NCBI RefSeq assembly: GCF_013035315.1
Contig: NZ_WQHP01000001.1
Coordinates: 806,001-870,000, forward strand
DNA: 64,000 bases
Reading direction: 5' to 3'
DNA from: Ruegeria arenilitoris
GTDB lineage: Bacteria; Pseudomonadota; Alphaproteobacteria; Rhodobacterales; Rhodobacteraceae
The position numbers and the translations under genes were made by a program. This document shows positions 15,941 through 32,809 of this stretch, in pieces; within the stretch, counting starts at the first letter, position 1, and each line of letters opens with the position of its first letter. The notes below the pieces were generated by a model. The model searched no databases. It was not told the origin of the DNA and was given only the letters and a program-made list of their open reading frames with translations.

Positions 15941-15990
15941 AGAGGTTCCTAAAAACTCCGCCTTGACCTGAGCGCTATCTAGGCCACGTG

Positions 15991-17313
15991 ATGCGAACGA
16001 TGGCGAAACGTTTAGCGATAGTCTCAAGTGGAGTGGCCAGCCCGCTCAGCAGCGCATTGGAATTTGCCAAGCGCGCCCAGTCGCTTGGGTACGAGGTCGG
16101 AGTGTTCGCACCTTGCGCCGCGCGCGGGTTGATTTTGCATTGCGACCTGCAACATATCGAAACTCCCGAACCGCGCGTCGACGCCTTTGCTCCGCTCCTG
16201 ACGCGGGAAGAGATGAAGGGCCTGACCGCAAAACAGCGGAAGGATGCAGCTGTTGACGCGCTGGGTGCAGAGGCTTTCGCCGATGCGTTGACCGGTTTTC
16301 AACCCGACGCCCTTTTTGTCGACTGCGAGCTTCATGCCCAAATTCTGGTCGGGCTGTCCCAGGGCCTTCCTACGGCTCAGTTCAGCAATATGTTTCTGTC
16401 TCCCCCTGGCCTTCGCGCCCCACCGCTGAATAAGCGCGCCCATCCGGGCGTTGGCCTGCGCGGCAGTCGCATCGGTGTCTTGCTGATTTGGACCAGTTTC
16501 CTTCTATGGAAGCTCAGGAAACGCCTGTGCAACAGATACAGGTACGGAGAGGCGGAATACAGCGCCGCCCTGCGTGAGCTGGCCAGACGCCTTGGCGTCC
16601 CCCTCGCACAAAAGCGCAGACTACTCTGCTGGCAAATGCCCTGGACTTACCGAATTCCCACCGCGCTGTTGCTGCCCAAGGCCCTCGACCTGCCCACGCG
16701 CTTGTATCCGGGTTTCGCATATCTGGGATCGATGATCCTGCAGGATCGACCAGAAAAACCCCACGACCACGATGCGGTTGCAAGGTTTTGTTCCGCCCCG
16801 GATGGCAAAAAACGCATCTTTGTTGGGTTCGGCACGATGATGCACCCCAAAAGCGGCCTTCTATCCAGTCTATGGGCCGTCGCCCGCAAGCACCCGGAAT
16901 GGCAGTTCCTTTTCGCGGCTGGACGCAAATGGGAAGACGATTCCCTGACAGGCCTGCCACCCAATGTCGAAGTGGTGGCTTGGGTTCCTCAGCAAGAGCT
17001 GATGCACCATGCTGATCTGGCCATCATGCATGGTGGCACGGGTGGTTTTGCTGAGGCGGTTGAGGCTGCAACCCCAGTTTTGCTTTACCCACATGTCAAC
17101 GACCAGCAAGGCAGTGCTGCCAGGGCCATTTTCCACGGGATCGGCCGCGCAGGTCGACAAACGGATACACCGGATCAGATCGAATCTGACATCCAGTCTC
17201 TGCTAAGTGATCCAGGCTACAAGGAAAACTGCAAAGCACTGCAGGCCGCATGCGTTGCAGAGACAGGTGCGGCGAGCTTGGCCAATATCTTGCGGAACTT
17301 CATCGATAAATAA
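15991..17313 (+). CDS. UGT/MGT-type glycosyltransferase (GT1 family)
   Basis: A 440-residue GT-B fold glycosyltransferase. The C-terminal donor-binding signature is clear: HGGTGGFAEAVEAATPVLLYP followed by HVNDQQGSAA, the pattern of macrolide and flavonoid UDP-glycosyltransferases. The N-terminal half begins with the expected Rossmann strand KRLAIVSSG. Starts at 15991 (ATG, AGG upstream) or 16000 are both possible; a GTG at 15988 is less likely. It stands alone between the catabolic amidohydrolase and the AT-rich gap before the NRPS operon. It may decorate the nonribosomal product or a lipid; nothing in the sequence decides this. Confidence 0.85.
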   Translation: MRTMAKRLAIVSSGVASPLSSALEFAKRAQSLGYEVGVFAPCAARGLILHCDLQHIETPEPRVDAFAPLLTREEMKGLTAKQRKDAAVDALGAEAFADALTGFQPDALFVDCELHAQILVGLSQGLPTAQFSNMFLSPPGLRAPPLNKRAHPGVGLRGSRIGVLLIWTSFLLWKLRKRLCNRYRYGEAEYSAALRELARRLGVPLAQKRRLLCWQMPWTYRIPTALLLPKALDLPTRLYPGFAYLGSMILQDRPEKPHDHDAVARFCSAPDGKKRIFVGFGTMMHPKSGLLSSLWAVARKHPEWQFLFAAGRKWEDDSLTGLPPNVEVVAWVPQQELMHHADLAIMHGGTGGFAEAVEAATPVLLYPHVNDQQGSAARAIFHGIGRAGRQTDTPDQIESDIQSLLSDPGYKENCKALQAACVAETGAASLANILRNFIDK

Positions 17314-17513: not shown

Positions 17514-18686
17514 GTGGACCAGACGACAAGACATACTGATCGCGACCGCAGCCGGGCCGTCCGAACCTTTGCGAACACAATCCGTGATCCCCAACCTGAG
17601 AACCTACGCGATTTATGGCATACCGCGGGTCAAAGTGGCCTGTTCAGTTATCTGGTGCCCTCCTCAGACGGAGGATCAGGGGATAATGCCAGCGAACTTG
17701 TCGAAGACATGCTTGATTTTGGCGAGCACTGTTCGGATGGCGGGTTCGCGATGGCCGTTCTTTCCCACGTCCTGACCATCCAAAAACCACTACTTGGGTT
17801 TGCAAGCCCTGAAATCCGCCAGCACTACATCCCGCGCCTATTAGCCGGCGACCTGATCGGAGCCTTTGCCCTGACCGAGCCCGCCTCGGGGTCTGATGCG
17901 CTGTCCCTGACCACTACAGCCGCCCCTAAAGACGGCGGGTATGTGCTGAACGGGCACAAGTCGTTTGTCGGGATGGGACCGATTTGCGATTTCGCGATCG
18001 TCTTCGCCCAAACCGACCCGGACAAAGGGCGGTGGGGCCTATCGGCCTTCGTTGTGACCGCCAACGATCCGGGGTTCCTGCGGGGCGATCGGAAGGAAAA
18101 GCTGGGGCTGAACACATCCCCAATCGGCCAGTTGGAATTCCGCGACTGCTGGATACCCGAAACACGCCGGATCGGACCAGAGGGCGCAGGGGCCAACATC
18201 ATTCAAACAACGCTCGACTGGGAGCGTTGTTTTATCCTGACCGCTCAGGTCGGGGCGATGCGCCGTCAATTGGCGGAATGCGTTGAGTTCGCCGCGTCGC
18301 GGCATCAGTTCGGCAAACCCATCTCTGCGTTTCAGTCGGTTTCAAACCGCCTTGCAGATATGCGTGTTCGCCTAGAAACCTGCGAACTGATGCTGGCGCG
18401 CGCAGCCCAGCTTTATGACTCAAGCCAGCCGCTCAGCCAGTTTGCAGCCATGGCGAACCTGCACATTTCCGAGGCCTGCCTGAGTTCTAGCATCGACGCG
18501 ATGCGTACCTTTGGCGGGCGCGGATACCTTAAGGGATCGAATTCCAGCGCTGACGTGACCGATGCCCTGGGCGGCGTCATCTATTCCGGCACCTCGGACA
18601 TTCAGCGCGAGATCATTGCAAAGATGGAGCTTGGGCAAAGACCCCAACCCCAAAAAGTTGGAGACGGGACCAATGGCAGTAACTGA
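17514..18686 (+). CDS. acyl-CoA dehydrogenase-like oxidase, probably acting on a carrier-bound aminoacyl group
   Basis: A 390-residue FAD flavoprotein of the acyl-CoA dehydrogenase fold: FALTEPASGSDA in the middle beta domain, RHQFGKPISAFQSV and the FGGRGYL helix region. The usual catalytic Glu of the YEGTS motif is replaced (YSGTSD, Ser358). Instead Glu237 lies in TTLDWER, the position used by isovaleryl-CoA dehydrogenase and by prolyl-carrier-protein oxidases such as PltE. The start is GTG at 17514; an in-frame TGA lies five codons upstream. It is the first gene of the NRPS operon and overlaps the HupE-like gene by 14 bases. With the stand-alone A domain and free PCP it probably oxidises the loaded amino acid. 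Confidence 0.85.
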   Translation: MDQTTRHTDRDRSRAVRTFANTIRDPQPENLRDLWHTAGQSGLFSYLVPSSDGGSGDNASELVEDMLDFGEHCSDGGFAMAVLSHVLTIQKPLLGFASPEIRQHYIPRLLAGDLIGAFALTEPASGSDALSLTTTAAPKDGGYVLNGHKSFVGMGPICDFAIVFAQTDPDKGRWGLSAFVVTANDPGFLRGDRKEKLGLNTSPIGQLEFRDCWIPETRRIGPEGAGANIIQTTLDWERCFILTAQVGAMRRQLAECVEFAASRHQFGKPISAFQSVSNRLADMRVRLETCELMLARAAQLYDSSQPLSQFAAMANLHISEACLSSSIDAMRTFGGRGYLKGSNSSADVTDALGGVIYSGTSDIQREIIAKMELGQRPQPQKVGDGTNGSN

Positions 18687-19923
18687 ATGCAAGATCATGG
18701 CCTGCCCAGCGCCTCGCAGAACCCCCATGACAATGGGTCTGGCAGCGCTGTTTCTCTGGCTTTGTACCTTCTTTTTGACGGCCCTCGCCACTCCGGCATA
18801 CGCCCACAGGGTCAATGAGACCTATGTCTATTTCGACGTGACAGAAAACACGTTGAGCGGCCGCATCGAAGTCACACTGACCGACCTCGCCCGAATTCAG
18901 CAAGGTCTGCCTCAGGTCGAAAACGCGCTGACAGAGGATGAAGTGCGCGCGACGCAAACCGCGTTCTTCGACTATTTCAAAGATCGGTTGCAGTTGTCCG
19001 CCAACGACCAACCCTACCAGATAGACTTCGACGACATCACCTTCTTTGGCTCGTCCATCGACACCTTCGCACAGTTTCATTTCAACGTGCTTGACGTCGA
19101 CAGAACTCCGACCACGATCCAGATATCCTATGACGGCTTGCTGGATGTCGATCCCGGCCATCGCGGCTTTGCGTTGATCGGCAGTAACAGCCGAAACGGG
19201 ATGGATGAGAACGAGGCCTATATCTCGCTGGTTTTCGCGCCCGGGGACGGCACGAAAGACCTTTATCTGAACGACGAACCGATCAAGGATATTGCGCGCT
19301 CTTTCTTTGAATATGGTGTCTGGCACATCTGGCTGGGGTTTGACCACCTGCTGTTTTTGGTGACGCTTCTGCTGGCCGCAGTTATGCGGATTGACAACGA
19401 CCATTGGGTGCCCTCGGACAGTATCCGTGACAGCCTGTGGCAAGCCGTCAAGGTCGTAACGCTCTTTACCATCGCCAATACCATCGCGCTGAGCCTTGCG
19501 ACCTTCGGAATCATCACCCTTCCCGTGACCCTGGTCGAAGCTGTTATCGCCCTGTCTATCGCCGCAGTGGCGTTGGGCAACCTTATCCCTCGCTTTCACG
19601 CAAGCGTCTGGAAACTGGCCATTCTGTTCGGCATTTTCCACGGGTTCGGCTTTGCTAATGTGCTGGAACCACTTGGGTTGGACGCCTCTCGCAAAGCGAC
19701 GGGATTGGCCACGTTCAACATCGGGATCGAGATCGGGCAGCTCGCCGTAGTTATGGTGTTGTTCCCAATCTTCTTCATCTTGCGTCGCCTGACCGCCTAT
19801 CGAGTCGTCTTTCTGCAATTTGGTTCGATTGCCCTGATCGCAGTATCGGTCCTTTGGTTCCTTGATCGGACCATTGGCTGGTTCCCACAAGTCGCAGCCA
19901 CTGCTTCCTCGGTGATCCAGTGA
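18673..19923 (+). CDS. HupE/UreJ-family membrane protein
   Basis: A 416-residue protein with a signal peptide-like N-terminus (hydrophobic stretch LAALFLWLCTFFLTALATPA then AYA-H), a periplasmic domain of about 170 residues, and a C-terminal HupE/UreJ domain of six or so membrane helices. The family motif HxWxGxDH is seen in WHIWLGFDHLL, with a second His in GIFHGFGFANVL. Family members are linked to nickel or other metal uptake for hydrogenase and urease. The start at 18673 is preferred for GGAG upstream; ATGs at 18697 and 18727 are alternatives. It overlaps the oxidase gene by 14 bases and the A-domain gene by one (TGATG), so it is co-translated with the NRPS genes. Metal transport or membrane support for the pathway is inference. 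Confidence 0.82.
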   Translation: MAVTECKIMACPAPRRTPMTMGLAALFLWLCTFFLTALATPAYAHRVNETYVYFDVTENTLSGRIEVTLTDLARIQQGLPQVENALTEDEVRATQTAFFDYFKDRLQLSANDQPYQIDFDDITFFGSSIDTFAQFHFNVLDVDRTPTTIQISYDGLLDVDPGHRGFALIGSNSRNGMDENEAYISLVFAPGDGTKDLYLNDEPIKDIARSFFEYGVWHIWLGFDHLLFLVTLLLAAVMRIDNDHWVPSDSIRDSLWQAVKVVTLFTIANTIALSLATFGIITLPVTLVEAVIALSIAAVALGNLIPRFHASVWKLAILFGIFHGFGFANVLEPLGLDASRKATGLATFNIGIEIGQLAVVMVLFPIFFILRRLTAYRVVFLQFGSIALIAVSVLWFLDRTIGWFPQVAATASSVIQ

Positions 19924-21428
19924 TGGAGAAGGCGGTGTTTCTGGATGACGCGCTCAGGCACAATGCGCAAACGACACCCGACGCTGCCGCGGTCCGGATG
20001 CTGGGTCGTGCTACGACCTACGCAGAACTCGACGGCCATGTAGACAAGATCGCACACGCCCTGCTGGATCGGGGCATCGGTCGAGGAGACCGAGTGGTCA
20101 TCTGTTCGATCAAAAGCGTGGAAACCATCGCCTCGATCTATGCGATCCTTCGCGTCGGAGGGACTTACGTACCGATTGACCCTGCAGCCCCGGCCGAGCG
20201 CGCCTTGGCCCAACTGTCCGCAGCTTCGCCCAAGATGGTCCTGACTGATACGGTCCGACTGCCAAAGTTTTCTGACGCAGTACCCGAAGTTCAACTACTG
20301 GACATCTCTGAACCTTTGCCAGCCGACCCGCGGATATTGCCGATCCCGCAAAGAGACGAACAGGACCCGGCTTACATCCTGATGACGTCTGGCACTACCG
20401 GAACGCCAAAAGGCATTGTCCATACGCACAAGAGTGGCCTGGTTTACGCGAAGATGGCTGCCGATTTATGCGGGTTGCGCGCCTCGGACCGGGTCAGCCA
20501 CCACACGCCTGTGCATTTCGATATGTCGATTTTCGACATTTTTAGCACGGCCCAAGCTGGTGCTTGCGCGGTGATCATCCCTGAAATGCACGCAAAACTG
20601 CCCGCAACCCTTTCCGAGCTTACAGAACACGAGAAGATCACCGTTTGGTATTCGGTCCCCCATGCCCTGATCCAAATGGTCGAACGCGGCGCGCTGGACA
20701 GCCGCGATCTCGGGGGCTTGCGGGTCGTTATGTTCGCCGGTGAGAAAATGCCCCCTGCCGCGTTGAAGGCGTTTTCCCAGTACACCCCAAACGCTATCTT
20801 CCTGAATGCCTATGGCCCGACCGAAACCAATCACTGCACCACGGCCAAGCTGACGCATGCAGATCTGGACGGGACAAGCCCAATTCCAATCGGCCACCCA
20901 GACACTGGCGTGACCGCGCGTATTGGTACTGAAGCAGAGGATGCCGAAACAGGAGAGTTATTGATCGCCGCAGATCAGGTCATGCTGGAATACTGGAACG
21001 CGCCAAACCTGACCGACGCATCGTTCTGTACTTTGCCCGACACGCACGGCGTTACCCGCAGATTCTACCGGACCGGTGACATCGTGCGCCGTGTGCCCGA
21101 CAAGGGACTGATTTTGATCGGCCGCAAGGATCGTCAGATCAAGCTCCGAGGTTTTCGGATCGAGTTGGACGAAGTCGAACTGGCACTGGTTAACGCGCCC
21201 ACGGTTACCGAAGCAGTTGCAGTCGTGGTCAGTGACGAAATCCGCGCCTTTGTAACAGGTGGCACGCCCGAGGACGTTGTAGATGTGCGGTCCCACATCC
21301 AAGGCATCCTGCCCCGCTATGCCGTGCCGCATCACATCACGTGGCTAGCAGATATGCCGCGCACGTCGACGGGCAAGATAGATCGGGCAAAGCTTACAGG
21401 GAAAGACGATGAACAACACGCAGCATGA
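19923..21428 (+). CDS. stand-alone NRPS adenylation domain (amino acid-PCP ligase)
   Basis: A 501-residue A domain: A3 MTSGTTGTPKG (from T155), A4 HFDMSIFDIFS, A5 NAYGPTE (from N295), A7 YRTGDIV, A8 RQIKLRGFRIE and A10 STGKIDR with the catalytic Lys. There is no attached carrier domain; the free PCP gene follows with a 20-base overlap. The layout and the run ITVWYSVPHALIQM resemble the proline-activating ligases of pyrrole starter pathways (PltF, AnaC type). My by-eye pocket reading is D-M-F-Y-M-A-A-H-C-K, which shares D, Y278, A301 and C331 with the code I recall for PltF but differs elsewhere, so proline is only one candidate. Confidence 0.9.
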   Translation: MEKAVFLDDALRHNAQTTPDAAAVRMLGRATTYAELDGHVDKIAHALLDRGIGRGDRVVICSIKSVETIASIYAILRVGGTYVPIDPAAPAERALAQLSAASPKMVLTDTVRLPKFSDAVPEVQLLDISEPLPADPRILPIPQRDEQDPAYILMTSGTTGTPKGIVHTHKSGLVYAKMAADLCGLRASDRVSHHTPVHFDMSIFDIFSTAQAGACAVIIPEMHAKLPATLSELTEHEKITVWYSVPHALIQMVERGALDSRDLGGLRVVMFAGEKMPPAALKAFSQYTPNAIFLNAYGPTETNHCTTAKLTHADLDGTSPIPIGHPDTGVTARIGTEAEDAETGELLIAADQVMLEYWNAPNLTDASFCTLPDTHGVTRRFYRTGDIVRRVPDKGLILIGRKDRQIKLRGFRIELDEVELALVNAPTVTEAVAVVVSDEIRAFVTGGTPEDVVDVRSHIQGILPRYAVPHHITWLADMPRTSTGKIDRAKLTGKDDEQHAA

Positions 21429-21660
21429 AACACAACGCCAGGCTGTCCGCAGTTACGTGCACGGTACTTTGCTGGGCGGCCAAACGGTTTCGGATGATGA
21501 AGAGCTGTTGCTGAGTGGCATGGTCGACTCGCTGGGTGTCATGTCGCTGGTTTCGTTCATCGAACAAACCTACGGGATTGAGATTCCCTTCGAAGATGTG
21601 ACCCTAGAAAATCTCTGCTCGATCACAGCAATTTCCAGATATGCCGATGGTCGTGCCTGA
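21409..21660 (+). CDS. free peptidyl/acyl carrier protein
   Basis: An 83-residue acidic carrier protein. The phosphopantetheine attachment Ser is S41 in SGMVDSLGVMSLV. It starts inside the A-domain gene (20-base overlap) and its end overlaps the possible start of the C-A-PCP synthetase, so the three are tightly coupled. It should be loaded by the stand-alone A domain, present the amino acid to the acyl-CoA-dehydrogenase-like oxidase, and pass the product to the condensation domain of the next protein. No phosphopantetheinyl transferase is encoded in the window. Confidence 0.92.
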   Translation: MNNTQHETQRQAVRSYVHGTLLGGQTVSDDEELLLSGMVDSLGVMSLVSFIEQTYGIEIPFEDVTLENLCSITAISRYADGRA

Positions 21661-24600
21661 CATGTCTGGTCAGTCGTATCATCTATCCGAAAGTCAGCTC
21701 AGGTTCTGGAAGGGTCATCGCCTGCAACCGGATATGCCGATCTACAACATGGCTTGGCGGTTTGAACTACAGCTCGACTTGGATCCCGACCTGTTTAAAA
21801 AGGCATTCCAAGGGGCGGTGCAGGACAATGAGATCCTGCGCGCTGTGTTTCGCGAAGGGCCGGACGGGCCTTATCAGGTCGCGCAGGCGATGCCGGATGA
21901 TCTGTTGGAGCACATCGACCTCAGCCAATCTGCAGAACCAGCGGCATCGCTGCACGAGCACCTTAAATCATGGACACAAGCCGCGTTTGATCTGGAACGC
22001 GAGCCACTGCGCAGCCAACTGATCAAGCTATCCGATACGCACTGGGTCTGGGCTCTCTGCCAGCATCACATCCTGTGCGACGCGCAATCCGGCGCGCTTT
22101 TGTTTGATCATGTCTCTCGCCGGTATTCGGCCTTGATGCAGGACGAGATATACCGGGCCGATCCTCTTCCACGCTTTTTTGACCGCCTGCCGACCCCAAA
22201 GTCGGACCCGATCCCGGTCGCAACTCCGCATCCCCCAACCGCTCCTTACGGAAGTGCAGCCAAGCGCAGAGGATATTCCCAACGCCTTCCCGTGCCGCTG
22301 GATGCCGACACTGCTCAGAAACTCGACAATGCAACCGAACGACCCGAGTTCCGTCTGTTCACCTCTGACCTGTCGAAACTGGCGATCTACCTGACCGCCT
22401 ATCTTGGGTATCTGCACAGGGTCACGGGGGATGATCAGATCACCATCGGCCTGCCCTCTCATAACCGGCTGACAGGTCAAGACAAAAAGACCATGGGGCC
22501 ATTTGTCGAAGTTTTGCCTTTTATCGTGGAAATCAGCCCTGATGAACCGATTTTGGACCTACATGCAAAGGTAAAGACTGCGCTCGGAGCGTTTCTTCGG
22601 CAGGCAAAGCCCGGTGCCGTCGCGGCCATGGACACGTCGGCCATCAGCGCCGTGTGCAACTACATTCAAGCTGAATTCCCGGACATTGCCGGGCATCCAG
22701 CTGATGTTCAGTGGCTGCACAGCGGTGCGCACGACGCCGCCCATGCCATGCGATTGCACATTACGGATTTCAGAGGCGACGGCAAGCCGCAACTGTATCT
22801 GGATGTCCACGATGAAATCTTGGAAGCAGTTGACCCCGAGCATGTCCAACACCACTTTGCGCGAGTTTTGGCGGCCACCCTTGAGGCCCCGGAAACGCCC
22901 CTAGATGCAGTGGATATGGCTGCGTGCGCGCAGGATCAGGCCATCGTTTTTGGGCCATCAGAGCCTGAAGATTTGCCTTCCACGGTGCTTGAGGCTTTTG
23001 CCGCTCAGGTCGCCAAGACACCAGATACCTTTGCGATGTGTCAGGCCGACCAGCAGATTACCTACGCGCAACTCAATGCGCAGAGTGACCGGGTCGCATC
23101 CTATCTTGCAGCCTTGGGCATCGCACGGGGATCATCAATCGCCGTCCACATGCCCCGTTCGACTGCATTTGTGCAGGTCGTACTGGGTATCCTTAAGGCC
23201 GGGTGCAACTTTGTCCCAATTGCCGCTAACACGCCTTTTGCGCGGGTCGATCAGATCATCAGAAGCGCCGAGGCCGCAGCGGTATTTGTCGCCCCACAGG
23301 ATGACCGCACATTCCCTTGCCAGATTTTGACCGCAGCAACGGCAACGTCGGAAGACCCACTGGATGTCTCGCCACCGCAAGGGAGCGAACGGGCTTACGT
23401 CCTGTTCACCTCTGGCTCTACCGGTGTGCCTAAGGGGGTTGAGGTCAGCCATGCCGAGCTGTCGCGATACATCCACTGGGCCGCCGATACGTTCGGCGAC
23501 ACCCCCGCCCCGTCCTACGCGTTCTTTTCGTCGATCTCGTTCGATCTAACGCTAACCTCTCTGTTCGCGCCGTTGATCAGCGGCGGCACGATCCACGTAT
23601 ACCCCGAGCGTGCAGACCCCGATCTTGCCGTGCTGGATGTGTTCGCCGAGGACGCGGTGGATGTGGTAAAGCTAACCCCGTCGCACTTGGCGCTGGCCTG
23701 CAAGCAGGGCCGTCCGGTTGAGCGTATTCAAACGCTTGTGCTGGGTGGCGAAAACCTGACGTCGCAACTCTGCCTTATGGCGGCTAAGGTCCTGTCCCCG
23801 TCCCTGAAGCTTATCAACGAATACGGCCCGACCGAAGCAGTGGTCGGCGCAATGCACCACGCCTTTGATCCCGCCGCAGACACCAAAGCCTCGGTTCAGA
23901 TTGGAATCCCCGCAGATGGAGTCTCAATCAGTGTTCGAGACGCGGGCATGAACCTATGCCCCATCGGTGTAACCGGCGAAATCGTGATCGGTGGTCGGTT
24001 GGCCGAAGGCTATTTGGGTGATCTATCCAAAACCGCAGCAAAGTTCCTGGACGATCCGAAAGCGATCCAAGGGAAAGTTTATCGCAGCGGTGACATCGGT
24101 CGGATCAACCGCGACGGCAGCTTTGACTACCTTGGCCGCGCGGATCAGCAGATCAAGATTGGTGGTATCCGGTTCGAAACTGCCGAGTTTGATCGCGTGC
24201 TACGCCAAATCCCCGGTGTGAATGCCGTTCATGTGTCATTTGGGCACCCGACCTCAGATTTGGGTAGCACCCAACAGTGCCGAACCTGCGGTCTGACCGA
24301 TGCCGTACCCGGTGTTGAATTTGCAGATGATGACTTATGCGGAGTATGCGCAGAGTTCGAAAGCTACAAGGATCGCGCCCAGGCCTATTTCCGCGACGAA
24401 CCCGCTCTGCAAAGCCAGATCACGCGTGCAGCCGAGACACGTCGCGGAGGCTACGACGCCGTGATGATGCTAAGCGGCGGCAAAGACAGCACCTATGCGG
24501 CTTACCGGCTGGCCGACTACACCTCTCGCGTTTTGGCCGTGACACTGGACAACGGCTATATCTCAGAACAGTCGAAGACCAATATTCAAAGGGTTGTCAA

Positions 24601-25774
24601 AGACCTGGGCTGGGATCATCGCTATCTCAGCACGGACAAGATGAACCAGATTTTTGTCGACAGTCTGAAAGCGCATTCCAACGTGTGCCAGGGGTGCTTC
24701 AAGGCGCTCTACACTCTGGCTTTTCGCACGGCCCTGTCCGAAGGTGCGCCCTTGGTTGTCACAGGTCTGTCCCGAGGACAGTTCTTTGAAACGCGCCTGA
24801 CCCCGGACTTGTTCCGAAACGCAGCCCCCACTTGTGAGCAGCTGGATGACATGGTCACCAAGGCGCGCAAAGCCTATCACGCAGAAGATGATGAGCTGTC
24901 CAGGCTTTTGGAAACCGAAGACCTGAAGGACGGCGACTTCCTGAACCGGGTCGAAGTGTTGGACATCTACCGCTATATTGATGTCCCCGTGTCCGAGATT
25001 TACGACTTTCTCGATACCCGCACTGCGTGGCAGCGACCGGCTGATACAGGACGTTCGACCAATTGTCTGATCAACGATGCCGGCATCTACTTGCACAAGT
25101 CCCGCGAGGGGTATCACAACTATGCCCTGCCCTATTCCTGGGACGTACGCATGGGCCACAAAACGCGCGCGCAGGCTCTGGACGAGTTGAATGACGAAAT
25201 CGATACCCAGAGGGTCGAAGCGATCCTTGAGGAGATTGGTTTTGACGAACCTGTCACACCACAAAACCTCAGCGTGTATGTGGCGGGTCAAGGCTTTACA
25301 GAACAGGATGTCTGGGAGGCATTGCAGGCGCATTTCCCACGCGCGATGTTGCCGGACTCGGTGTTTGTTCTTCCGGATATGCCGCTGAATACCAACGGTA
25401 AGGTCGATCCTTCCCGACTTCCCAAAGGGCGAAGCCGCGGGCGAGACGATGCGGATTTCGTTGCCCCCAGAAATGAAATGGAACAGCGCCTGGCCAGCAT
25501 TCTGGCGACAGCGCTCGGCGCATCTCGCGTCAGCGTGACCCAGGACTTTTTCGATCTTGGCGTCGACAGCCTGACAGCCATCGAGATCGCGGTTAAAGCC
25601 AATGAAAACGGACTGCCCCTGCCGGCCACGTCCCTGTTTGAATACCGGACCATTCGCGCCTTGGCAGAGCATGCCGATCACCTGCCCGCCACCACATCTG
25701 CCGAAGGTGAAAATGAGGCGCTGATCGATCTGGACGACGATGACCTTTCAAGCATCACGGAGGCATTGAGCTGA
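21641..25774 (+). CDS. NRPS: C - interrupted A (PP-loop ATPase insert) - PCP
   Basis: A 1377-residue synthetase. The C domain (about 10-430) has H142-H143-x3-D147, with Ala in place of the motif Gly. The A domain has A3 TSGSTGVPKG (590-599), A5 NEYGPTE (from 726), A7 YRSGDIG (from 814) and A8 QIKIGGIRFE (about 837-846). About residues 872-1205 are an insert: a zinc-ribbon-like CXXC pair (C880/C883, C900/C903), the PP-loop SGGKDS (945-950) and a third CXXC (C1016/C1019), matching N-acetyl-sugar amidotransferase (WbuX/PseA/LegM-type) PP-loop enzymes. The A domain resumes at N1209, with A10 NTNGKVD (from 1250), then a PCP with S1310 in GVDSL. The pocket read by eye is D-L-T-K-V-G-E-V-G-K, close to the Asn code. 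The start is 21641 or ATG 21662; neither has a good ribosome site. Confidence 0.93.
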   Translation: MPMVVPDMSGQSYHLSESQLRFWKGHRLQPDMPIYNMAWRFELQLDLDPDLFKKAFQGAVQDNEILRAVFREGPDGPYQVAQAMPDDLLEHIDLSQSAEPAASLHEHLKSWTQAAFDLEREPLRSQLIKLSDTHWVWALCQHHILCDAQSGALLFDHVSRRYSALMQDEIYRADPLPRFFDRLPTPKSDPIPVATPHPPTAPYGSAAKRRGYSQRLPVPLDADTAQKLDNATERPEFRLFTSDLSKLAIYLTAYLGYLHRVTGDDQITIGLPSHNRLTGQDKKTMGPFVEVLPFIVEISPDEPILDLHAKVKTALGAFLRQAKPGAVAAMDTSAISAVCNYIQAEFPDIAGHPADVQWLHSGAHDAAHAMRLHITDFRGDGKPQLYLDVHDEILEAVDPEHVQHHFARVLAATLEAPETPLDAVDMAACAQDQAIVFGPSEPEDLPSTVLEAFAAQVAKTPDTFAMCQADQQITYAQLNAQSDRVASYLAALGIARGSSIAVHMPRSTAFVQVVLGILKAGCNFVPIAANTPFARVDQIIRSAEAAAVFVAPQDDRTFPCQILTAATATSEDPLDVSPPQGSERAYVLFTSGSTGVPKGVEVSHAELSRYIHWAADTFGDTPAPSYAFFSSISFDLTLTSLFAPLISGGTIHVYPERADPDLAVLDVFAEDAVDVVKLTPSHLALACKQGRPVERIQTLVLGGENLTSQLCLMAAKVLSPSLKLINEYGPTEAVVGAMHHAFDPAADTKASVQIGIPADGVSISVRDAGMNLCPIGVTGEIVIGGRLAEGYLGDLSKTAAKFLDDPKAIQGKVYRSGDIGRINRDGSFDYLGRADQQIKIGGIRFETAEFDRVLRQIPGVNAVHVSFGHPTSDLGSTQQCRTCGLTDAVPGVEFADDDLCGVCAEFESYKDRAQAYFRDEPALQSQITRAAETRRGGYDAVMMLSGGKDSTYAAYRLADYTSRVLAVTLDNGYISEQSKTNIQRVVKDLGWDHRYLSTDKMNQIFVDSLKAHSNVCQGCFKALYTLAFRTALSEGAPLVVTGLSRGQFFETRLTPDLFRNAAPTCEQLDDMVTKARKAYHAEDDELSRLLETEDLKDGDFLNRVEVLDIYRYIDVPVSEIYDFLDTRTAWQRPADTGRSTNCLINDAGIYLHKSREGYHNYALPYSWDVRMGHKTRAQALDELNDEIDTQRVEAILEEIGFDEPVTPQNLSVYVAGQGFTEQDVWEALQAHFPRAMLPDSVFVLPDMPLNTNGKVDPSRLPKGRSRGRDDADFVAPRNEMEQRLASILATALGASRVSVTQDFFDLGVDSLTAIEIAVKANENGLPLPATSLFEYRTIRALAEHADHLPATTSAEGENEALIDLDDDDLSSITEALS

Positions 25775-25775
25775 C

Positions 25776-28700
25776 ATGGGATACCCGCAAGGCGTCGCTG
25801 ATATTCTTCCCCTGTCCTCGGCCCAGCGCGGGATGCTATTCCATGTTGAAGGCCAGGCTCAATTGCGCGGGCAATATGTGGCGGTCATCAGTTGCGCCCT
25901 GAATGGTCCGTTGGACGCGGAACGCCTGAAGGACGCTATGGAGAAATTGGTCGAGTCGCACGACGCCTTACGCGCTGGGTTCGTCTGGAAAGGCGTGAAG
26001 CAACCGGTTCAGGTCATTCAGGAACACGTAAAGCTACCCTGGACTGAACTAGACTGGGCCGATCGACCAGAACCAGGACGCGGGCTTGAAGATTTATTGA
26101 AATTGGAACAACTGCGCCAATTCGAGCTGAAGAAACCGCCACTGATGGCAGTCACGTTGATCAAACTTGCCAAGGACCGCTGGCACTTTGTCTGGACGAT
26201 GCACCATCTGATCAGTGATGGTTGGTCGACCGGCGTCGCCTTTCGGGATCTCTTTCGCCGTTACAATGGCGATCCCCAAGACGGCGCGTCACCAAGTTTC
26301 AAGACCTACCTGACCTGGCTCAAGAAACAGGGCCCTCTGACGGACAAGGGGTTCTGGACCAGCTACCTTGCTGGTCTTGATGCACCCAGCATGCTGCCTG
26401 AATTGGACAATCAATCCGAGGCGTCGATACAGCTGTCCCATTCCGAACTTTTGGGCCAAGACCTGATGGACCGGATCGACCGCGCAGCAGCCGGGCTGAA
26501 GGTGACCACCAATACGGTTCTGTCGGGTGCCTGGGCCTTGGTAATACGGCGTTATCTGCAACAGGACGATGTGGTTTTCGGCACCACAACGGCAGGCCGA
26601 CCACCGGAAATTCCCAATATCTCACAGGCGGTTGGTGCGTATATCAGCACCTTGCCGGTCAGGTTCAGAATTGACCCGGAAAAACCCGTCGGCGCGTTTC
26701 TCCAAGATCACGCGATGGCCGAGGTTGAGCGACTGAAACACGAATATGCTTCCTTGGCCGAGGTGCAAACCTGCGCACCGTTTCCCAAGGGAACCCCTGT
26801 TTTCGACACTGTTTTTGTGAACGAAGGTGTCCAGAAAACCGGCTACGACTTTGGCGAGATACAGGTTGCGGGCTTGAAGACGACCCAATTCAGCAACTAC
26901 CCGCTGTCGATACTGGTGACGCCGCAAAACGATCTGGGTGTCGAGGTTTATTTCGACCCGGCGCGCATCACACTGGATGCGGTGCGCTCGTGCCTTTCCA
27001 GCTACAAACAGGTTCTGACCGTGATCGCAGCCAAGCCGGATACGCTGATAGGCGATGTGATGAAGGATCAGGCGCCGGCGATTTCTGTCGCTCTCGCGCC
27101 GGAGACCCAGAATGTCGTACAACGTTTCTTGCAACAGGCCGAACTATCGCCAAACGCCGCGGCACTGACCGACGGTCACCGGACGCTTTCCTATGCTGAA
27201 ACATCCCGACGCGCGCGTCAGATTGCGTTTGCGCTACGTCAGTCTGGTGTTCGGGAAACTGATATTGTCCCAGTTGCCCTTCCACGCGGTGCCGATGCGA
27301 TTGTGGGATTTCTCGGCGCTATGATGGCAGGGGCATCTTATGTTCCGCTGGATCTGGATTACCCTGAAACCCGCCTTGAACAAATTCTCCAGGCAACCCA
27401 ACCGCGTTTCGTGGTGACCACGCAAGACGCGTTTTCAAACCTGCCCGAGACAGAGGCTGAACCGGTCTTCCTCGACGCTTTGGAACAGGCACTGGAACCG
27501 TCCGAGGTTGCAACCGGCTCTCGGGCCTATGTCATGTTTACCTCAGGGTCCGAGAACCGACCCAAGGGCGTTGAAATCTCTCACGAAGGGCTGGCAATCT
27601 CCACGGCGGCACGGGATCAGGTTTATGGCACAGCACCAGAGGTTTACCTGCTGCTCTCGTCGCTGGCGTTCGATAGTTCAGTCGCGGGTGTCTACTGGAC
27701 TCTGTGCACCGGCGGGCACCTTGTCATCGCCGAAAAGCAAGCTGAACAGCGCCCAGCCGCGTTGGGGCAGTTGATAGCGCAGCACGGTGTCACCCACACG
27801 CTCTGCCTGCCCAGCCTTGCAGGCGCGCTGCTGGCCTCGGTGCCGCCGCAAGATTTGCAATCACTCAAGGTTCTGATCGCTGCCGGAGAGGCACTATACC
27901 CGACCCTGCCCCGCGACTTGCGACGAGTACTGCCGGATTGCCAGTTGATGAACGAATACGGCCCGACCGAGGGCACCGTGTGGTGTACCGGTTTCGACGC
28001 GACCGGGTTCGATGATGGATCGATCGTGCCGATCGGAACCGCCATTCCCGGTACTTGGGTTGGTATCTTCGACAGCGACGATTGCCCGGCCGCGCCGGGC
28101 ATTGCTGGTGAGATCATTGTCGCCGGTCAAACAGTCGCGAATGGGTATCTGAACGATGACGCGCAAACCAAAGACCGCTTTTTCCAGATTGGCTCGGTCA
28201 GAGCTTACAGGACCGGCGATCTTGGCGTTGCGGATGAGGCAGGCTGCATCACATTTCTGGGCCGCAAAGACAAGCAGGTCAAAATTCGCGGCCACCGCGT
28301 TGAATTGACCGAGATCGAAGCCGCTGCGCAGGTGGTGACAGCCGACCGGCGGGTCGCAGCACTTGCCGTGGATCGCGCGGGTTCGAACACGGTCGTTCTG
28401 GCTGTCGAATGCCCACCGGACGACCCTATGTGCGAGGCCGCCGCCCGGCACATCCAAGCCAGCCTTCCGGATCCGTTTCACCCAAGCGCGGTCCTCGGGG
28501 TTCAGGTCTTTCCGACCCTTCCCAACGGCAAGTTGGACCAGAAAGCGCTGCGAGCCTTGATCACAGACCAAACCCGATCTCAGAGCGGAGCAGCCCCCAA
28601 AGATGGTCTGGAGTCTCAAGTCGCAGCAATTTTTACGGAAACGCTGAAGACCGAGTGTCAGACGCGCGACGCGAATTTCTTTGATCTGGGTGGGACCAGC

Positions 28701-29603
28701 CTTGCCACGATCACCGCTTACACCAAAGGCCAGGAACAAGGCGTCCACTTTGAACCCATTGACTTGTTCAGCTGTCCCACCGTGGCAGAACTGGCCAAAC
28801 GCGTGGCTGATCGGCGCGCGGGAGCCGCGTTTTCGAAAACCGAAAGCACCGTTCAAATCTCGAACCCGGGATCGGGCAAAACAACGGTTGTGATCGCGCA
28901 TTGCTCGGTCAAGTTCAGCAAATACATGGCACGCAGTCTGGGCGAGGATCATTCCGTTGTTCACATCCCCAGCCATCGCACCGAAAGCACTCCTGTCCCC
29001 TTCGGAAAATCGTTTGAGCAGCTAGCCGATGAGGCCATCGTGCGCCTGAAGCAGACTGGAAACACGGGACCGTTCGTGTTGTGTGGCTATTCCGCCGGGT
29101 GTCCGATGGTGATGGAGATGGCTCGGCAACTGGGTGATGAGGCCGTCAAGGGCATGATCCTTCTGGACCCGCCGTTCAAGATGGTAGGGGCCGAACCTGC
29201 GCTGCAACCTTTGTATTTCCGCAGCTACAAACGGTTGAGATATATAATCAAAGGTTGGAAACGCCACTACAGGGCGCGGCGCACGCTGCCGGATATCAAA
29301 CGCATATTGGCAGAGCAAGCTGACGCCGAAGAAACGCGGATTAGAGGTGTTGAGATCGCCCATGAACTGGCAGTCAGCGACTTTCGAGTGCCGCGATTTG
29401 ACCGGCCTTCGCACGTGTTTTTGTCACGGGGCAACCCATCCCTCACACCGGGCGATGTTCTGGATACGCATTTGCGGGACAAGCGGTGCTACAGCCTGGA
29501 TATGGAACACGTCGAACTGATGAACCGGCCCGACGTGTTTTCAACCATCGCCTCGGTTATCTCCGAGTGTGCAAATCATGAGGCCAACGGCGGATACGCC
29601 TAA
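25776..29603 (+). CDS. NRPS: C - A - PCP - thioesterase (terminal module)
   Basis: A 1275-residue terminal synthetase. The C domain (about 1-430) has the full motif HHLISDGWS (H143-H144, D148). The A domain has A5 NEYGPTE, A7 YRTGDLG, A8 KQVKIRGHRVE and A10 NGKLDQ (about 917); its A3 loop is TSGSENRPKG (589-598), with Glu593 where Thr is usual. The PCP Ser is S975 in LGGTSL. The C-terminal thioesterase has S1106 (GYSAG), D1131 (LLDPP) and H1245 (MEHVEL). It starts one base after the preceding stop. By-eye pocket: D-S-A-L-I-A-E-V-W-K, which I cannot assign. It should add the last residue and release the product. Confidence 0.93.
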   Translation: MGYPQGVADILPLSSAQRGMLFHVEGQAQLRGQYVAVISCALNGPLDAERLKDAMEKLVESHDALRAGFVWKGVKQPVQVIQEHVKLPWTELDWADRPEPGRGLEDLLKLEQLRQFELKKPPLMAVTLIKLAKDRWHFVWTMHHLISDGWSTGVAFRDLFRRYNGDPQDGASPSFKTYLTWLKKQGPLTDKGFWTSYLAGLDAPSMLPELDNQSEASIQLSHSELLGQDLMDRIDRAAAGLKVTTNTVLSGAWALVIRRYLQQDDVVFGTTTAGRPPEIPNISQAVGAYISTLPVRFRIDPEKPVGAFLQDHAMAEVERLKHEYASLAEVQTCAPFPKGTPVFDTVFVNEGVQKTGYDFGEIQVAGLKTTQFSNYPLSILVTPQNDLGVEVYFDPARITLDAVRSCLSSYKQVLTVIAAKPDTLIGDVMKDQAPAISVALAPETQNVVQRFLQQAELSPNAAALTDGHRTLSYAETSRRARQIAFALRQSGVRETDIVPVALPRGADAIVGFLGAMMAGASYVPLDLDYPETRLEQILQATQPRFVVTTQDAFSNLPETEAEPVFLDALEQALEPSEVATGSRAYVMFTSGSENRPKGVEISHEGLAISTAARDQVYGTAPEVYLLLSSLAFDSSVAGVYWTLCTGGHLVIAEKQAEQRPAALGQLIAQHGVTHTLCLPSLAGALLASVPPQDLQSLKVLIAAGEALYPTLPRDLRRVLPDCQLMNEYGPTEGTVWCTGFDATGFDDGSIVPIGTAIPGTWVGIFDSDDCPAAPGIAGEIIVAGQTVANGYLNDDAQTKDRFFQIGSVRAYRTGDLGVADEAGCITFLGRKDKQVKIRGHRVELTEIEAAAQVVTADRRVAALAVDRAGSNTVVLAVECPPDDPMCEAAARHIQASLPDPFHPSAVLGVQVFPTLPNGKLDQKALRALITDQTRSQSGAAPKDGLESQVAAIFTETLKTECQTRDANFFDLGGTSLATITAYTKGQEQGVHFEPIDLFSCPTVAELAKRVADRRAGAAFSKTESTVQISNPGSGKTTVVIAHCSVKFSKYMARSLGEDHSVVHIPSHRTESTPVPFGKSFEQLADEAIVRLKQTGNTGPFVLCGYSAGCPMVMEMARQLGDEAVKGMILLDPPFKMVGAEPALQPLYFRSYKRLRYIIKGWKRHYRARRTLPDIKRILAEQADAEETRIRGVEIAHELAVSDFRVPRFDRPSHVFLSRGNPSLTPGDVLDTHLRDKRCYSLDMEHVELMNRPDVFSTIASVISECANHEANGGYA

Positions 29604-29618
29604 ATCCAATCGTATCCG

Positions 29619-30521
29619 TCAGTTTTGCAAGCTCTGAGAGGCGTCAGAGACATCTGAGAGTGCTTTTTGGTACGCTTCAACAAAGGTTCCTTCGGTCGGC
29701 TCGTGCGCCAACGTAGGGAAGATAACGTTCTGCAATCCAAGCTGTTCCACGGCTTCCAGCGCCGCTGCGGGCGGTGCTGCTTCCCAAATCAGGATCTCTG
29801 CACCCAACTGGTTTTGCAAAGCACTCAGCTCAGCAAGCTGATCCGGGTTGGGGGCTTCGCCCGCCTCCCAATCCATCGAGGCAATCGTAAGCCCGTAGCG
29901 CCGCGCAAGGTACTGATACCGTGGATGTGTGGCGATCATCGGCACGGCTTCAAGGTCAGCAAAGACGTCCGCAGCCGTCTGATCCAACGCGGCAATGTCA
30001 GTACGGAGCTGTTCAAGCCGATCCTCAACCTCTCCTACGGGGGCAATGTCGCGGGTCGTGATCGCCGCCGCAATGGCCTCGGCCTGAGCGGTGGCCAGCA
30101 CTGGGTCGAGCCAGACGTAGGACGCAAGCCCTTCGTGCGAATGCTCACCCCCGTCGCCGTGGCTATGGGTGATGCTCTCGGTGACGATAAACTGATCTTC
30201 GATGGCGGCCGAGCTGTTGAAGACGCGGGACCGAGGCAGCGACACCCGGTCGATCCAGGTGGCGAATTCTGCACCGTTCAAAAGGATCAGGTCCGCCGAT
30301 TGAACATCGCTAATATCCGAAATGGACGGGCGCCAGAAAGACGGGTCCACATCAGTTGGCACTGGGAATACAACATCTGCTGCGTCGCCGACTAGGCGTT
30401 CGGTGAAATACTGCAGTGGATAGTTCACCGTCACCACCTTGGGTCGATCCTGCGCCCCTGCAGCCGTCGCCACCATCAGTGCCAGGATCAAGGCTGTAAC
30501 GCGATTGAAGAACCGTAGCAT
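29619..30521 (-). CDS. ZnuA-like metal ABC transporter substrate-binding protein
   Basis: About 300 residues, periplasmic (signal peptide LRFFNRVTALILALMVATAA-GA). It has the cluster-9 metal-binder fold: VVTVNYPLQYFTERL, a short His-rich loop (ITHSHGDGGEHSHEG) that could collect Zn, the ATHPRYQYLARRYGL region, and LGAEILIWEA near the end. Three consecutive ATGs (30527, 30524, 30521) are possible; 30521 has GGGAG at the best spacing, whereas 30527 overlaps the upstream stop. It is last in the leftward operon and only 15 bp from the convergent NRPS gene. No matching ZnuB-type permease is present; the operon instead has FtsX/LolD-type components. Confidence 0.85.
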   Translation of the reverse strand: MLRFFNRVTALILALMVATAAGAQDRPKVVTVNYPLQYFTERLVGDAADVVFPVPTDVDPSFWRPSISDISDVQSADLILLNGAEFATWIDRVSLPRSRVFNSSAAIEDQFIVTESITHSHGDGGEHSHEGLASYVWLDPVLATAQAEAIAAAITTRDIAPVGEVEDRLEQLRTDIAALDQTAADVFADLEAVPMIATHPRYQYLARRYGLTIASMDWEAGEAPNPDQLAELSALQNQLGAEILIWEAAPPAAALEAVEQLGLQNVIFPTLAHEPTEGTFVEAYQKALSDVSDASQSLQN

Positions 30522-30523
30522 CA

Positions 30524-30871
30524 TCATCTCCCGCATTTGCGCGCGATATCTTCGGGGGTCACGATCCAATAGTTGTCATGGCCCCCGGTATCGACCTCGA
30601 TCACCAGACCCGTCGCGTAATCCACGCTGGCTAACGGCACCAGCGCAGTACCGTCACTGCTCAGCTGCAACGTCGTCTGCAAAGCGTTCTCACCGTCCAA
30701 CACACGTACTTCACCCTGCTGAGCCGGTTTCCCATTCGAGAACTTTGCCTCGACCGTGACTGCCTGGCAATCAACCGAGGCAAAAACGACCAACTGATGC
30801 GCAGCCGCTGCCACAGGGGCAACGGCCAGCAGTGCGGTCAGGCCCACGGCCCGGATCACTGGCCCGTCCAT
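30524..30871 (-). CDS. small exported protein of unknown function
   Basis: A 115-residue protein with an N-terminal signal peptide (about residues 7-24, cleavage after AAA-AH) and a beta-rich mature part of about 90 residues. Two Cys (in VDCQAV and the C-terminal RKCGR) could pair. The strand pattern AVTVEAKFSNGKPAQQGEVRV resembles small beta-sandwich periplasmic components that accompany DUF4198 proteins in nickel/cobalt uptake loci. It overlaps the DUF4198 gene by 16 bases and the ZnuA-like gene downstream. A metal-related periplasmic accessory role is inferred from neighbours only. Confidence 0.65.
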   Translation of the reverse strand: MDGPVIRAVGLTALLAVAPVAAAAHQLVVFASVDCQAVTVEAKFSNGKPAQQGEVRVLDGENALQTTLQLSSDGTALVPLASVDYATGLVIEVDTGGHDNYWIVTPEDIARKCGR

Positions 30872-31626
30872 TCTTCGAAATGGACCCAGATCACCGCGCC
30901 CAGTTCGACAGCCTTGTCTTCACCATCCTGCGGCAGTGTGTAGTCCGCCGTGTTCAGCGCGGCGAACCCCCACCAACCATACGAGGGCGCGGCATAGGTG
31001 AACACACCGTTCGCGTCAGCCTTGACCGTCTGCGTGATCATCAGCTCATCCGGCACAGTGGCGTTGGTGCCATCGTTCAGAAACTCGACTTCGACCTCGG
31101 CATACGGCACGGCTTCGCCATCCATCTTCACGATGCCTTGGAAAACGTTACGCTCCCACAGGCCGAAAGGTTTGGACAGGGGCACGATTTCGGTCTTGAG
31201 GCCCAGCTCGGCATCCCACCCCTCATCATCACCATAAGCGGTTACATATGTCTTGGTGTAGTGGATGATAAACGCGTCTTCGGCTGGCTCCCAATAGGGT
31301 TTGGGTTCCATGGCAAAGACGTAAGTTCCGGGACGTTCCAGCGCGAAGTCGAGCGTATAGCCCTGATCATCCATAACGGTGGCGTCCTGCAGATCACCCA
31401 GCAAATCCGTGGTGCTGCCGTCATGCGTGACGGTGAACGCCTCGGGCCGGTCCAGCATCATGCCATCCATTTCGAACGGGTGCGAAAACGACATGGTCAG
31501 CGAGACGGTGCGCCCGTCTTCCTGGCTGATCATCGGATCGTTTGGAATGATCATCCCATAATGCGCCAGCGCCGGAGTTGCCGCAACGCTGCCCGCCAAA
31601 GCCGCCGATAGAATACGCCGTTTCAT
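30856..31626 (-). CDS. DUF4198-like periplasmic protein (metal-uptake accessory)
   Basis: A 256-residue exported protein. The ATG at 31626 (AGGGAGA upstream) gives a clean signal peptide ending TPALA-HYG. The mature N-terminus HYGMIIPND, the SFSHPFEMDGM motif and the ALERPGTYVFAMEPKPYW region match DUF4198, a family found with Ni/Co uptake systems (NikK-like) and thought to bind metal through its N-terminal His and other His residues. It lies between the FtsX-type permease and the small exported protein. Its role is probably metal capture or delivery in the periplasm. Confidence 0.78.
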   Translation of the reverse strand: MKRRILSAALAGSVAATPALAHYGMIIPNDPMISQEDGRTVSLTMSFSHPFEMDGMMLDRPEAFTVTHDGSTTDLLGDLQDATVMDDQGYTLDFALERPGTYVFAMEPKPYWEPAEDAFIIHYTKTYVTAYGDDEGWDAELGLKTEIVPLSKPFGLWERNVFQGIVKMDGEAVPYAEVEVEFLNDGTNATVPDELMITQTVKADANGVFTYAAPSYGWWGFAALNTADYTLPQDGEDKAVELGAVIWVHFEEWTGQ

Positions 31627-31639
31627 AATTCTCCCTTTC

Positions 31640-32809
31640 TCATGCGCCCAGCGAGAGCAGCCAGCCCACCCAAGTCTCGGCATTTCGCGAAACCAACGCG
31701 GCGCCAAAGGCCGCAATACACCCTGAAATTAAAAGCAAAGTCACCGTCTCGGCCGCCAACAAGCGCAGCACCATACCTCGCCGCGCGCCCAGTTTCACGG
31801 CAGTCGCGATCTCGCGCGCCCGCAGCCGGTAACTGAGAAACACCGCTAACCCAACGGCAGCCAGAGCCGCCACCGCGATGATCGCTGTCACGACGTCCAG
31901 CAGCGACTTGATCCGAAAGATGCGATCCACCAGCCCTTGGATCACCCCGGCGGGCTCGATCAACTGACTGGGGTTCTCTCCATCCAGATAGCGACCTTTC
32001 AGGATGGTCGCCGCGCGCGTATCCGTAGGGACGACGATGACTGCGGTGGCCGGAAAATCATCCTGCGCGCCGTGGAAGTGAAAGCTGTCGATGTTTTCGG
32101 GGGTGATACGCTGAAACTGCACCACAGACGCATTGGACAGCGTCTCGGCCCCGGACGCGATGTCAGCGGCTGTGACAACGTCTTCGTGGCCGTGACCGAT
32201 CCCCTGAATCACCCAAGCCGTTTTAATATCAGCAAAAATCGCCTGATCGTCTGGTGTGTTGGTCGGTGCCAGAACGCCGACGATTGGCATTTCCAACGGA
32301 TAGACTCCGTCAAGATCGAACAGGTTTTCCGGCGACGAAACCAGAGTATCGCCCACTCCCTTACCCAAGGCCTGCGCCACATCCGCGCCGATCACTGCGT
32401 CACCAAGCACGGACAAGCCCCGCCCTTCGGAAAACATCAGATCGCGAAAGTCGAAATAGTCCAGGGTTGTACCGACGATCCTGAACCCGCCAGACGAAAA
32501 CGCGGTATGCACGGGGATCGGTATAGCCATGCCACTGTCCCAAACCGCCTCGACCTCGCCCATCAAGATCGGATCCGGGCGCTCGTCCGAAAAGTAAAGC
32601 GCGGCCATTGTCAGATCCAACTGTGATCCTCGACTGCCCAGCAGCAGCGGCGTCGCTTCACCACGGGCCACAAGCGCCGTCTGGCTGGTGGACAGAAGTA
32701 TCTGAGTGGCCGCGGGCACGAACAAGATCAGAGCTGCGACGACCACAAGCACCAGACTGCGTGCCCAGTGAAACCGCAGATAGGCAAAGGCAAGGTACAA
32801 CGCATTCAT
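31640..32809 (-). CDS. FtsX/MacB-type ABC permease
   Basis: A 389-residue membrane protein with one N-terminal helix (about 15-38), a large periplasmic domain (40-270) and three C-terminal helices, the FtsX layout. The end shows the FtsX signature region YRLRAREIATAVKLGARRGMV. It overlaps the LolD-type ATPase gene (ATGA). This class moves lipoproteins or drives mechanotransmission rather than classic import, so its pairing with a metal-binding protein is unusual. It could extract or export a ligand or complex in the periplasm. Confidence 0.85.
   Translation of the reverse strand: MNALYLAFAYLRFHWARSLVLVVVAALILFVPAATQILLSTSQTALVARGEATPLLLGSRGSQLDLTMAALYFSDERPDPILMGEVEAVWDSGMAIPIPVHTAFSSGGFRIVGTTLDYFDFRDLMFSEGRGLSVLGDAVIGADVAQALGKGVGDTLVSSPENLFDLDGVYPLEMPIVGVLAPTNTPDDQAIFADIKTAWVIQGIGHGHEDVVTAADIASGAETLSNASVVQFQRITPENIDSFHFHGAQDDFPATAVIVVPTDTRAATILKGRYLDGENPSQLIEPAGVIQGLVDRIFRIKSLLDVVTAIIAVAALAAVGLAVFLSYRLRAREIATAVKLGARRGMVLRLLAAETVTLLLISGCIAAFGAALVSRNAETWVGWLLSLGA

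Follow-up and report, generated by a model that had tools for sequence, protein, structure and literature searches.

The window analyzed here comprises 64,000 nt of Ruegeria arenilitoris (contig NZ_WQHP01000001.1, positions 806,001 to 870,000 of the forward strand), and all positions below count from its first letter. It harbors a gene for a nonribosomal peptide synthetase (NRPS) at 21641-25774, in which the adenylation (A) domain is split between motifs A8 and A10 by a PP-loop domain of about 340 residues. The synthetase consists of a condensation (C) domain, the interrupted A domain and a thiolation (T) domain, also called peptidyl carrier protein (PCP), and the insert belongs to the aminomutase/amide dehydratase (AMDH) type. 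The following parts were assigned:

21641-25774, + strand: synthetase C-A(AMDH)-T, from domain scans and the HHILCDA motif of the C domain
22997-24235, + strand: core of the A domain with the asparagine-type code DLTKVGEVGK, from code extraction
24236-25255, + strand: AMDH-type PP-loop insert, residues 866-1205, from its WbuX-like fold and homology to CysH-type AMDH domains
24278-24349, + strand: zinc-ribbon-like cysteines C880, C883, C900 and C903, from conservation, with zinc as the presumed ligand
24473-24490, + strand: PP-loop SGGKDS, residues 945-950, from motif conservation
24686-24697, + strand: putative [4Fe-4S] site, cysteines 1 and 2 (C1016 and C1019, a CxxC), from the alignment with LarE
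25064-25066, + strand: putative [4Fe-4S] site, cysteine 3 (C1142), from conservation
25256-25402, + strand: rest of the C-terminal subdomain of the A domain up to the A10 lysine, from motifs and model strands
25484-25672, + strand: carrier (T) domain, Pfam PF00550 at residues 1282-1344, which would carry asparagine

The position of the insert between A8 and A10 had been read from the sequence in a preliminary description and was confirmed by the motifs and by a structural model of the interrupted domain, in which strands 421-429 and 770-777 flank the insert on either side. This model had a predicted template modeling (pTM) score of 0.61, and no conclusion is drawn from how it places the insert against the A domain. 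Structure prediction of the insert, which had been proposed as a check, gave a PP-loop-type, WbuX-like fold. The same arrangement had also been suggested as worth seeking in other genomes. Our genome scan found 212 confirmed stretches with the insert, and each of the best 80 of them, to which all locus counts below refer, contained one SGGKDS open reading frame (ORF) of the interrupted-A type. A search with the insert alone, restricted to proteins between 0.55 and 1.75 times as long as the 21641-25774 synthetase, yielded 2101 proteins at E ≤ 1e-3. SGGKDS was present in all of the best 120 of these 2101, in 118 of 118 proteins of a second set and in 110 of 120 proteins of a third set, which were largely fragments. 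The PP-loop, the four zinc-ribbon-like cysteines, the further CxxC and C1142 were invariant in 121 aligned proteins. Since the arrangement recurs in many proteins and loci with invariant motifs, the interrupted A domain is real and neither a chance product nor an artifact. Within the bacterial class of the window, a WbuX match in a frame of more than 1300 aa (NRPS size) was found in 3 of 289 sampled genomes, its own included. By record title, the insert rows come from 12 phyla, with many metagenome bins among them. Their partial intermixing in the tree described below suggests transfer of the insert between lineages.

The insert is an AMDH domain, a kind known from AlbIV of albicidin and CysH of cystobactamid synthesis; the AlbIV-type domain, renamed AMDH in cystobactamid, is also described in PMC8949500. 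The view of the preliminary description that no PP-loop insert in an A domain was known therefore had to be abandoned. The architecture has been in print since 2015/2021, and what is new beyond the literature found is a cofactor prediction from a cysteine triad and a recurring operon. With about 340 aa and SGGKDS, the insert fits the size and motif of AMDH domains (about 38 kDa, SGGKD), and it shares with those of CysH and AlbIV the location inside an Asn-specific A domain that adjoins a T domain. Its identity to the AMDH of a CysH-type gene (L125) was 49% over 325 residues with 3 gaps (E 6e-109), and the whole A-AMDH-T part was 40% identical to the L125 protein over 945 aa. The zinc-ribbon and CxxC + C cysteines of the window were also present in both CysH-type proteins (L124 and L125). 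These came from a survey of Myxococcota, in which the insert profile matched in 6 of 195 genomes at E ≤ 1e-30. The three strong matches were in the genome of locus L055, which was the center of the search, and in two others (L124 and L125), with frames of 1036 and 1004 aa; the three weak ones (L121-L123) were frames of 389-412 aa that lacked CxxC + C. Genes for a TauD dioxygenase, an O-methyltransferase, a two-module NRPS with thioesterase (TE) domain and a thioesterase lie near the CysH-type gene of L125, while a chorismate-binding (PabB-like) enzyme is encoded in the sister locus, L124. By this gene content, both clusters appear to be cystobactamid-like. Whereas CysH and AlbIV are stand-alone A-T modules that feed another assembly line, the window has a C-A(AMDH)-T module in a short line, together with a stand-alone A/PCP/dehydrogenase set and a second module with a histidine-like code. 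Other interrupted A domains harbor a methyltransferase, oxidase or ketoreductase, mostly between a8 and a9 (PMC8949500 among the sources); their insertion site is like that in the window, but the inserted enzymes are unrelated.

According to PMC7966384, CysH loads asparagine (+114) and dehydrates it to +96, while CysH without AMDH shows no dehydration. Carrier-bound asparagine is converted to beta-cyanoalanine by the CysH AMDH in vitro, and deletion of the AMDH in vivo abolished both the cyanoalanine and the isoasparagine linkers. The same paper reports many AMDH homologs in Asn-type A domains of uncharacterized clusters. By homology to CysH, the insert of the window probably acts on the carrier-bound residue, as had been supposed. 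Installation of nitrogen or sulfur, put forward earlier as a possibility, is not supported as the likeliest chemistry; CysH, the closest relative that has been tested, dehydrates bound asparagine to beta-cyanoalanine or isomerizes it to isoasparagine. We consider it likely that the insert dehydrates the side-chain amide of carrier-bound asparagine to the nitrile (beta-cyanoalanine). This reading is supported at the sequence level by the split A domain with its motifs and Asn code, the intact PP-loop, the AMDH homology, the carrier domain and the modules up- and downstream.

The alignments behind the ten code positions of the A domains were made in this analysis. Besides the asparagine-type code of the window, DLTKVGEVGK, which was found in 16 of the 80 SGGKDS ORFs, 53 ORFs had DLTKIGEVGK, the code listed for cyanoalanine/AlbIV, 9 had close variants and one was without the last letter. 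The ORF of L057 ends before the code; all 79 readable codes followed D[LM][TS]K[IV]GE[VI][GA]. The 120 listed proteins from the insert search had Asn-type codes or codes one letter off, and among the 118 new proteins of the second set 112 were of the Asn type (two of them without one letter) and 6 were cut. In seven loci (L051, L058, L060, L062, L063, L068 and L070), the A(AMDH)-T ORF is 990-1017 aa long. Only 196-220 residues precede its A3 motif SGSTG; they contain no HHxxxD and leave no space for a C domain. The reaction in these proteins can therefore not depend on earlier peptide bond formation by the same polypeptide, an argument for the side chain as the reaction site. The seven loci, from Bradyrhizobium, Microvirga, Mesorhizobium and one Gemmatimonadota bin, represent a minimal form with a phosphopantetheinyl transferase-family gene (that of L070 was scanned), A(AMDH)-T and a dehydrogenase. 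Most also have a TubC_N-thioesterase-family gene (that of L060 was scanned), with none labeled in L051. Such loci might release one modified amino acid.

From CysH, we would expect the A domain to load asparagine and the insert to act on the thioester in cis. ATP would adenylate the oxygen of the amide, and the imidate-AMP so formed would lose AMP to become the nitrile, in line with PP-loop chemistry and with QueC, ArtA and PesC, which form nitriles by amide adenylation and subsequent loss of AMP (PMC13060819). These nitrile synthetases (QueC/ToyM, ArtA, PesC), with PP-loop or asparagine-synthetase-like folds, perform the ATP-dependent amide-to-nitrile chemistry that is proposed for the insert. 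C1016, C1019 and C1142 would bind a [4Fe-4S] cluster with its fourth iron directed at the PP-loop, where it would hold or polarize the amide, while C880, C883, C900 and C903 would coordinate zinc in a structural role. An acyl group supplied by the stand-alone A/PCP/dehydrogenase line, possibly proline-derived, would be linked to the Asn-derived residue by the C domain; a histidine-like residue would follow from the next module, which would also release the peptide.

The three cysteines C1016, C1019 and C1142 were invariant in 52 of 52 inserts. The complete CxxC + C triad was found in 357 of 358 listed homologs (120/120, 117/118 and 120/120), which are top-ranked and hence close relatives, the last set of 120 being largely fragments. 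It is retained in both CysH-type proteins and in a free-standing AMDH of a Streptomyces plasmid. Among 30 stand-alone WbuX proteins, from the 30 loci retrieved in the genome survey of the bacterial class of the window, cysteine occupied the three positions in 3, 4 and 5 cases, with all three present in 3 (L094, L104 and L107), and the solved amidotransferase 8wex has HPFQPF at the CxxC position and an incomplete triad. The zinc-ribbon-like cysteines, in contrast, are shared by both groups: each of the four positions was conserved in all 52 inserts and in 28-30 of the 30 WbuX relatives. Because of the three WbuX rows, the triad cannot count as a hallmark restricted to the NRPS inserts. The CxxC of the window aligns with the CxxC of a LarE that was solved with a [4Fe-4S] cluster, and TtuA holds its cluster by three conserved cysteines with one iron left free (PMC6225789). 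The insert has the three cysteines that characterize TtuA/LarE-type [4Fe-4S] sulfurtransferases, with cluster binding as a prediction, and CxxC + C may be such a site.

Purified CysH was dark brown, and a CxxCxxxC (radical-SAM) motif was sought in it and not found, according to PMC7966384, whose authors left the AMDH mechanism open. For this mechanism the triad points to a cluster site of the TtuA/LarE type. A three-cysteine [4Fe-4S] cluster, if present in AMDH, would explain the brown color, and we infer that it does. No report of an iron-sulfur cluster in AMDH was found in the literature searched, outside of which most subscription papers lie. That all AMDHs, that of the window included, are [4Fe-4S] enzymes appears to us quite possible, if somewhat short of probable: a WbuX-related A-domain insert with a thiolating-type site, in which the open iron holds or activates the adenylated Asn amide for conversion to the nitrile. 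If so, AMDH would be a nitrile-forming iron-sulfur ATP pyrophosphatase, of which we know no example, and the family of the window would build a conserved acyl-cyanoalanine-histidine peptide, possibly metal-binding.

No amidotransferase or cysteine desulfurase was present among the 25 commonest of the 130 Pfam families of neighboring genes (80 of 234 neighbor ORFs scanned). Dehydration to the nitrile needs neither a nitrogen nor a sulfur donor, a point in its favor. Likewise, no TauD (CysJ-like) family was found among these 25 families or among the operon genes scanned, which mildly favors the nitrile over isoasparagine. Several points weigh against nitrile formation. CysH gives isoasparagine from asparagine when the hydroxylase is deleted (PMC7966384), so a missing hydroxylase need not mean that the nitrile is formed. 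The cysteine triad characterizes PP-loop enzymes that thiolate rather than the nitrile formers known so far, the neighbor census covers 80 of 234 ORFs and 25 of 130 families, and the assignment of the CysH-type genes to cystobactamid-like clusters is based on gene content.

An insert that acts mainly as asparaginyl aminomutase would produce isoasparagine, as CysH does in the major cystobactamids. The insert belongs to the same domain family, and the isoasparagine linkers depended on the AMDH as mentioned above. We nevertheless regard this as unlikely, considering the lack of a TauD-like gene in the scanned set. Moreover, the authors of PMC7966384 speculate that isomerization is more efficient after beta-hydroxylation by CysJ, and they state that no isoasparagine-containing albicidin had been found.

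The triad also fits a [4Fe-4S] sulfur inserter, in which the amide of asparagine is adenylated and an iron-held sulfide displaces AMP to give a thioamide (thioasparagine). The triad is nearly universal in the homologs and absent from 8wex and 27 of 30 WbuX proteins, the insert aligns to [4Fe-4S] LarE, TtuA, LarE and NcsA are among its fold neighbors, and the same activated amide could, when no sulfur donor is supplied, give the dehydration observed in vitro as a side product. However, albicidin holds a nitrile, and the CysH-type AMDHs share the triad, yet the cystobactamid linkers described in PMC7966384 are without sulfur. No sulfur-donor gene was found among the operon genes scanned. The thioamide was given up as the leading reading on account of the triad in CysH-type AMDHs, and we now hold sulfur insertion to be very unlikely. 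TtuA, NcsA and [4Fe-4S] LarE further differ from the insert in passing sulfur to tRNA or cofactors, in their other accessory domains and in their low identity to it.

The preliminary description had recognized homology of the insert to WbuX/LegM-type PP-loop enzymes, and this was borne out by the common WbuX fold and zinc-ribbon cysteines and by an hhalign alignment to WbuX over 315 columns, nearly the full length, with a probability of 99.9. The closest solved fold was an N-acetyl sugar amidotransferase. The score of the insert against TIGR03573 (WbuX) was 111 bits and thus below the curated cut-off of 203.2. In a tree of 93 rows, rooted at the midpoint so that the root was not inferred, the 62 inserts and the free AMDH formed one group (99/99) apart from 29 of the 30 WbuX proteins; the 30th, L111, has a very long branch and fell beside the insert group. 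The WbuX/PseA/LegM enzymes (8wex) have no A-domain context and sugar substrates by name, and the full triad is missing from 8wex and most of them. WbuX-type amidotransferases work with an ammonia-supplying partner of the HisH/HisF type. Despite the kinship and fold, we give hardly any credit to installation of nitrogen (amide or amidine) as by PseA, LegM or WbuX, given the low TIGR03573 score, the separate and supported group, the triad at positions where WbuX proteins typically have other residues, the lack of an ammonia-supplying partner in the scanned operon genes (with 80 of 234 ORFs covered in the neighbor census) and the different chemistry of the tested CysH domain.

On the WbuX side of the tree, the triad-bearing rows (L094, L104 and L107) split off first. 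This would fit an ancient triad that most WbuX proteins lost as well as one gained twice. These three are a supported group of stand-alone WbuX-like proteins with CxxC + C, unlike the other 27, and are possibly iron-sulfur or thiolating variants.

The free AMDH is encoded at L116:11932-14112 (Streptomyces sp. NBC_01216 plasmid unnamed3), where it lies outside any A domain and is fused ahead of a condensation-like domain. It retains the zinc ribbon, SGGKDS and the cysteine triad, and it adjoins a gene for an uninterrupted A-T protein and asnB. From this arrangement, the AMDH domain is perhaps able to act in trans.

Parts of the operon recurred beside the insert in 12 phyla. The counts below are from loci of which many lie on short contigs.

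15988-17313, + strand: glycosyltransferase accompanying the unit, in 25 of 80 loci
17514-18686, + strand: acyl-CoA-dehydrogenase-like protein, near prolyl-carrier dehydrogenases, in 46 of 80 loci
18562-19923, + strand: HupE/UreJ-family membrane protein (PF13795), in 45 of 80 loci
19920-21428, + strand: stand-alone A domain with code DMFSMAAHCK, substrate unsure, proline suspected, homologs in 47 of 80 loci
21409-21660, + strand: stand-alone carrier protein of 83 aa, by sequence, homologs in 33 of 80 loci
25776-29603, + strand: synthetase C-A-T-TE with the histidine-like code DSACIAEVWK, homologs in 60 of 80 loci

A complete set of five genes (dehydrogenase, HupE, A, C-A(AMDH)-T and C-A-T-TE) was present in 25 of the 80 loci. 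On an annotated Roseovarius plasmid, genes for A, methyltransferase, dehydrogenase, carrier protein and HupE adjoin a fused C-A(AMDH)-T-C-A-T-TE. As called, the HupE ORF shares 125 bases (18562-18686) with the dehydrogenase gene; since many homologs are shorter, its true start is probably further downstream.

The best match of the dehydrogenase in the PDB was 6cxt (named butyryl-CoA dehydrogenase), followed by three prolyl-carrier dehydrogenases. For the stand-alone A domain, linear gramicidin synthase A was the best match with 393 bits, while the L-prolyl-carrier ligase 6o6e reached 240 bits. Its code is without Val236 and Gln239, which are listed for common proline codes in PMC12283262, and proline was hinted at only by the dehydrogenase and ornithine-cyclodeaminase-like genes. 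The latter occurred in 19 of 80 loci (e.g., L031:3107-4213; one member scanned) and fit proline or another cyclized starter. For the last module, PMC12283262 names DSALIAEVWK in its histidine section. We predict the backbone acyl (perhaps dehydroprolyl or pyrrolyl)-cyanoalanine-histidine, with the first residue as the weakest part. No report of a product from this operon was found in the literature searched, with the limits given above. Widespread and conserved as it is, the operon offers a clear starting point in the search for a new nitrile (or isoasparagine) peptide.

Genes for a ZnuA-like binding protein, DUF4198, a MacB-like permease and an ABC ATPase follow the cluster at 29619-34298 (- strand). 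A link to zinc uptake was dropped, as this ZnuA-like/ABC block was found only in L002, L007 and L046 (3 of 80 loci). A search for a Zur-like palindrome gave 6 matches versus 8.8 expected and no support for such a link. That the product serves as a metallophore is a guess, on which the HupE genes (45 of 80 loci) and TonB-dependent receptors (7 of 80 loci) touch. The receptor family (e.g., L048:12062-14293; one member scanned) adjoins the cluster, with six of the seven loci from Bacteroidota by record title.

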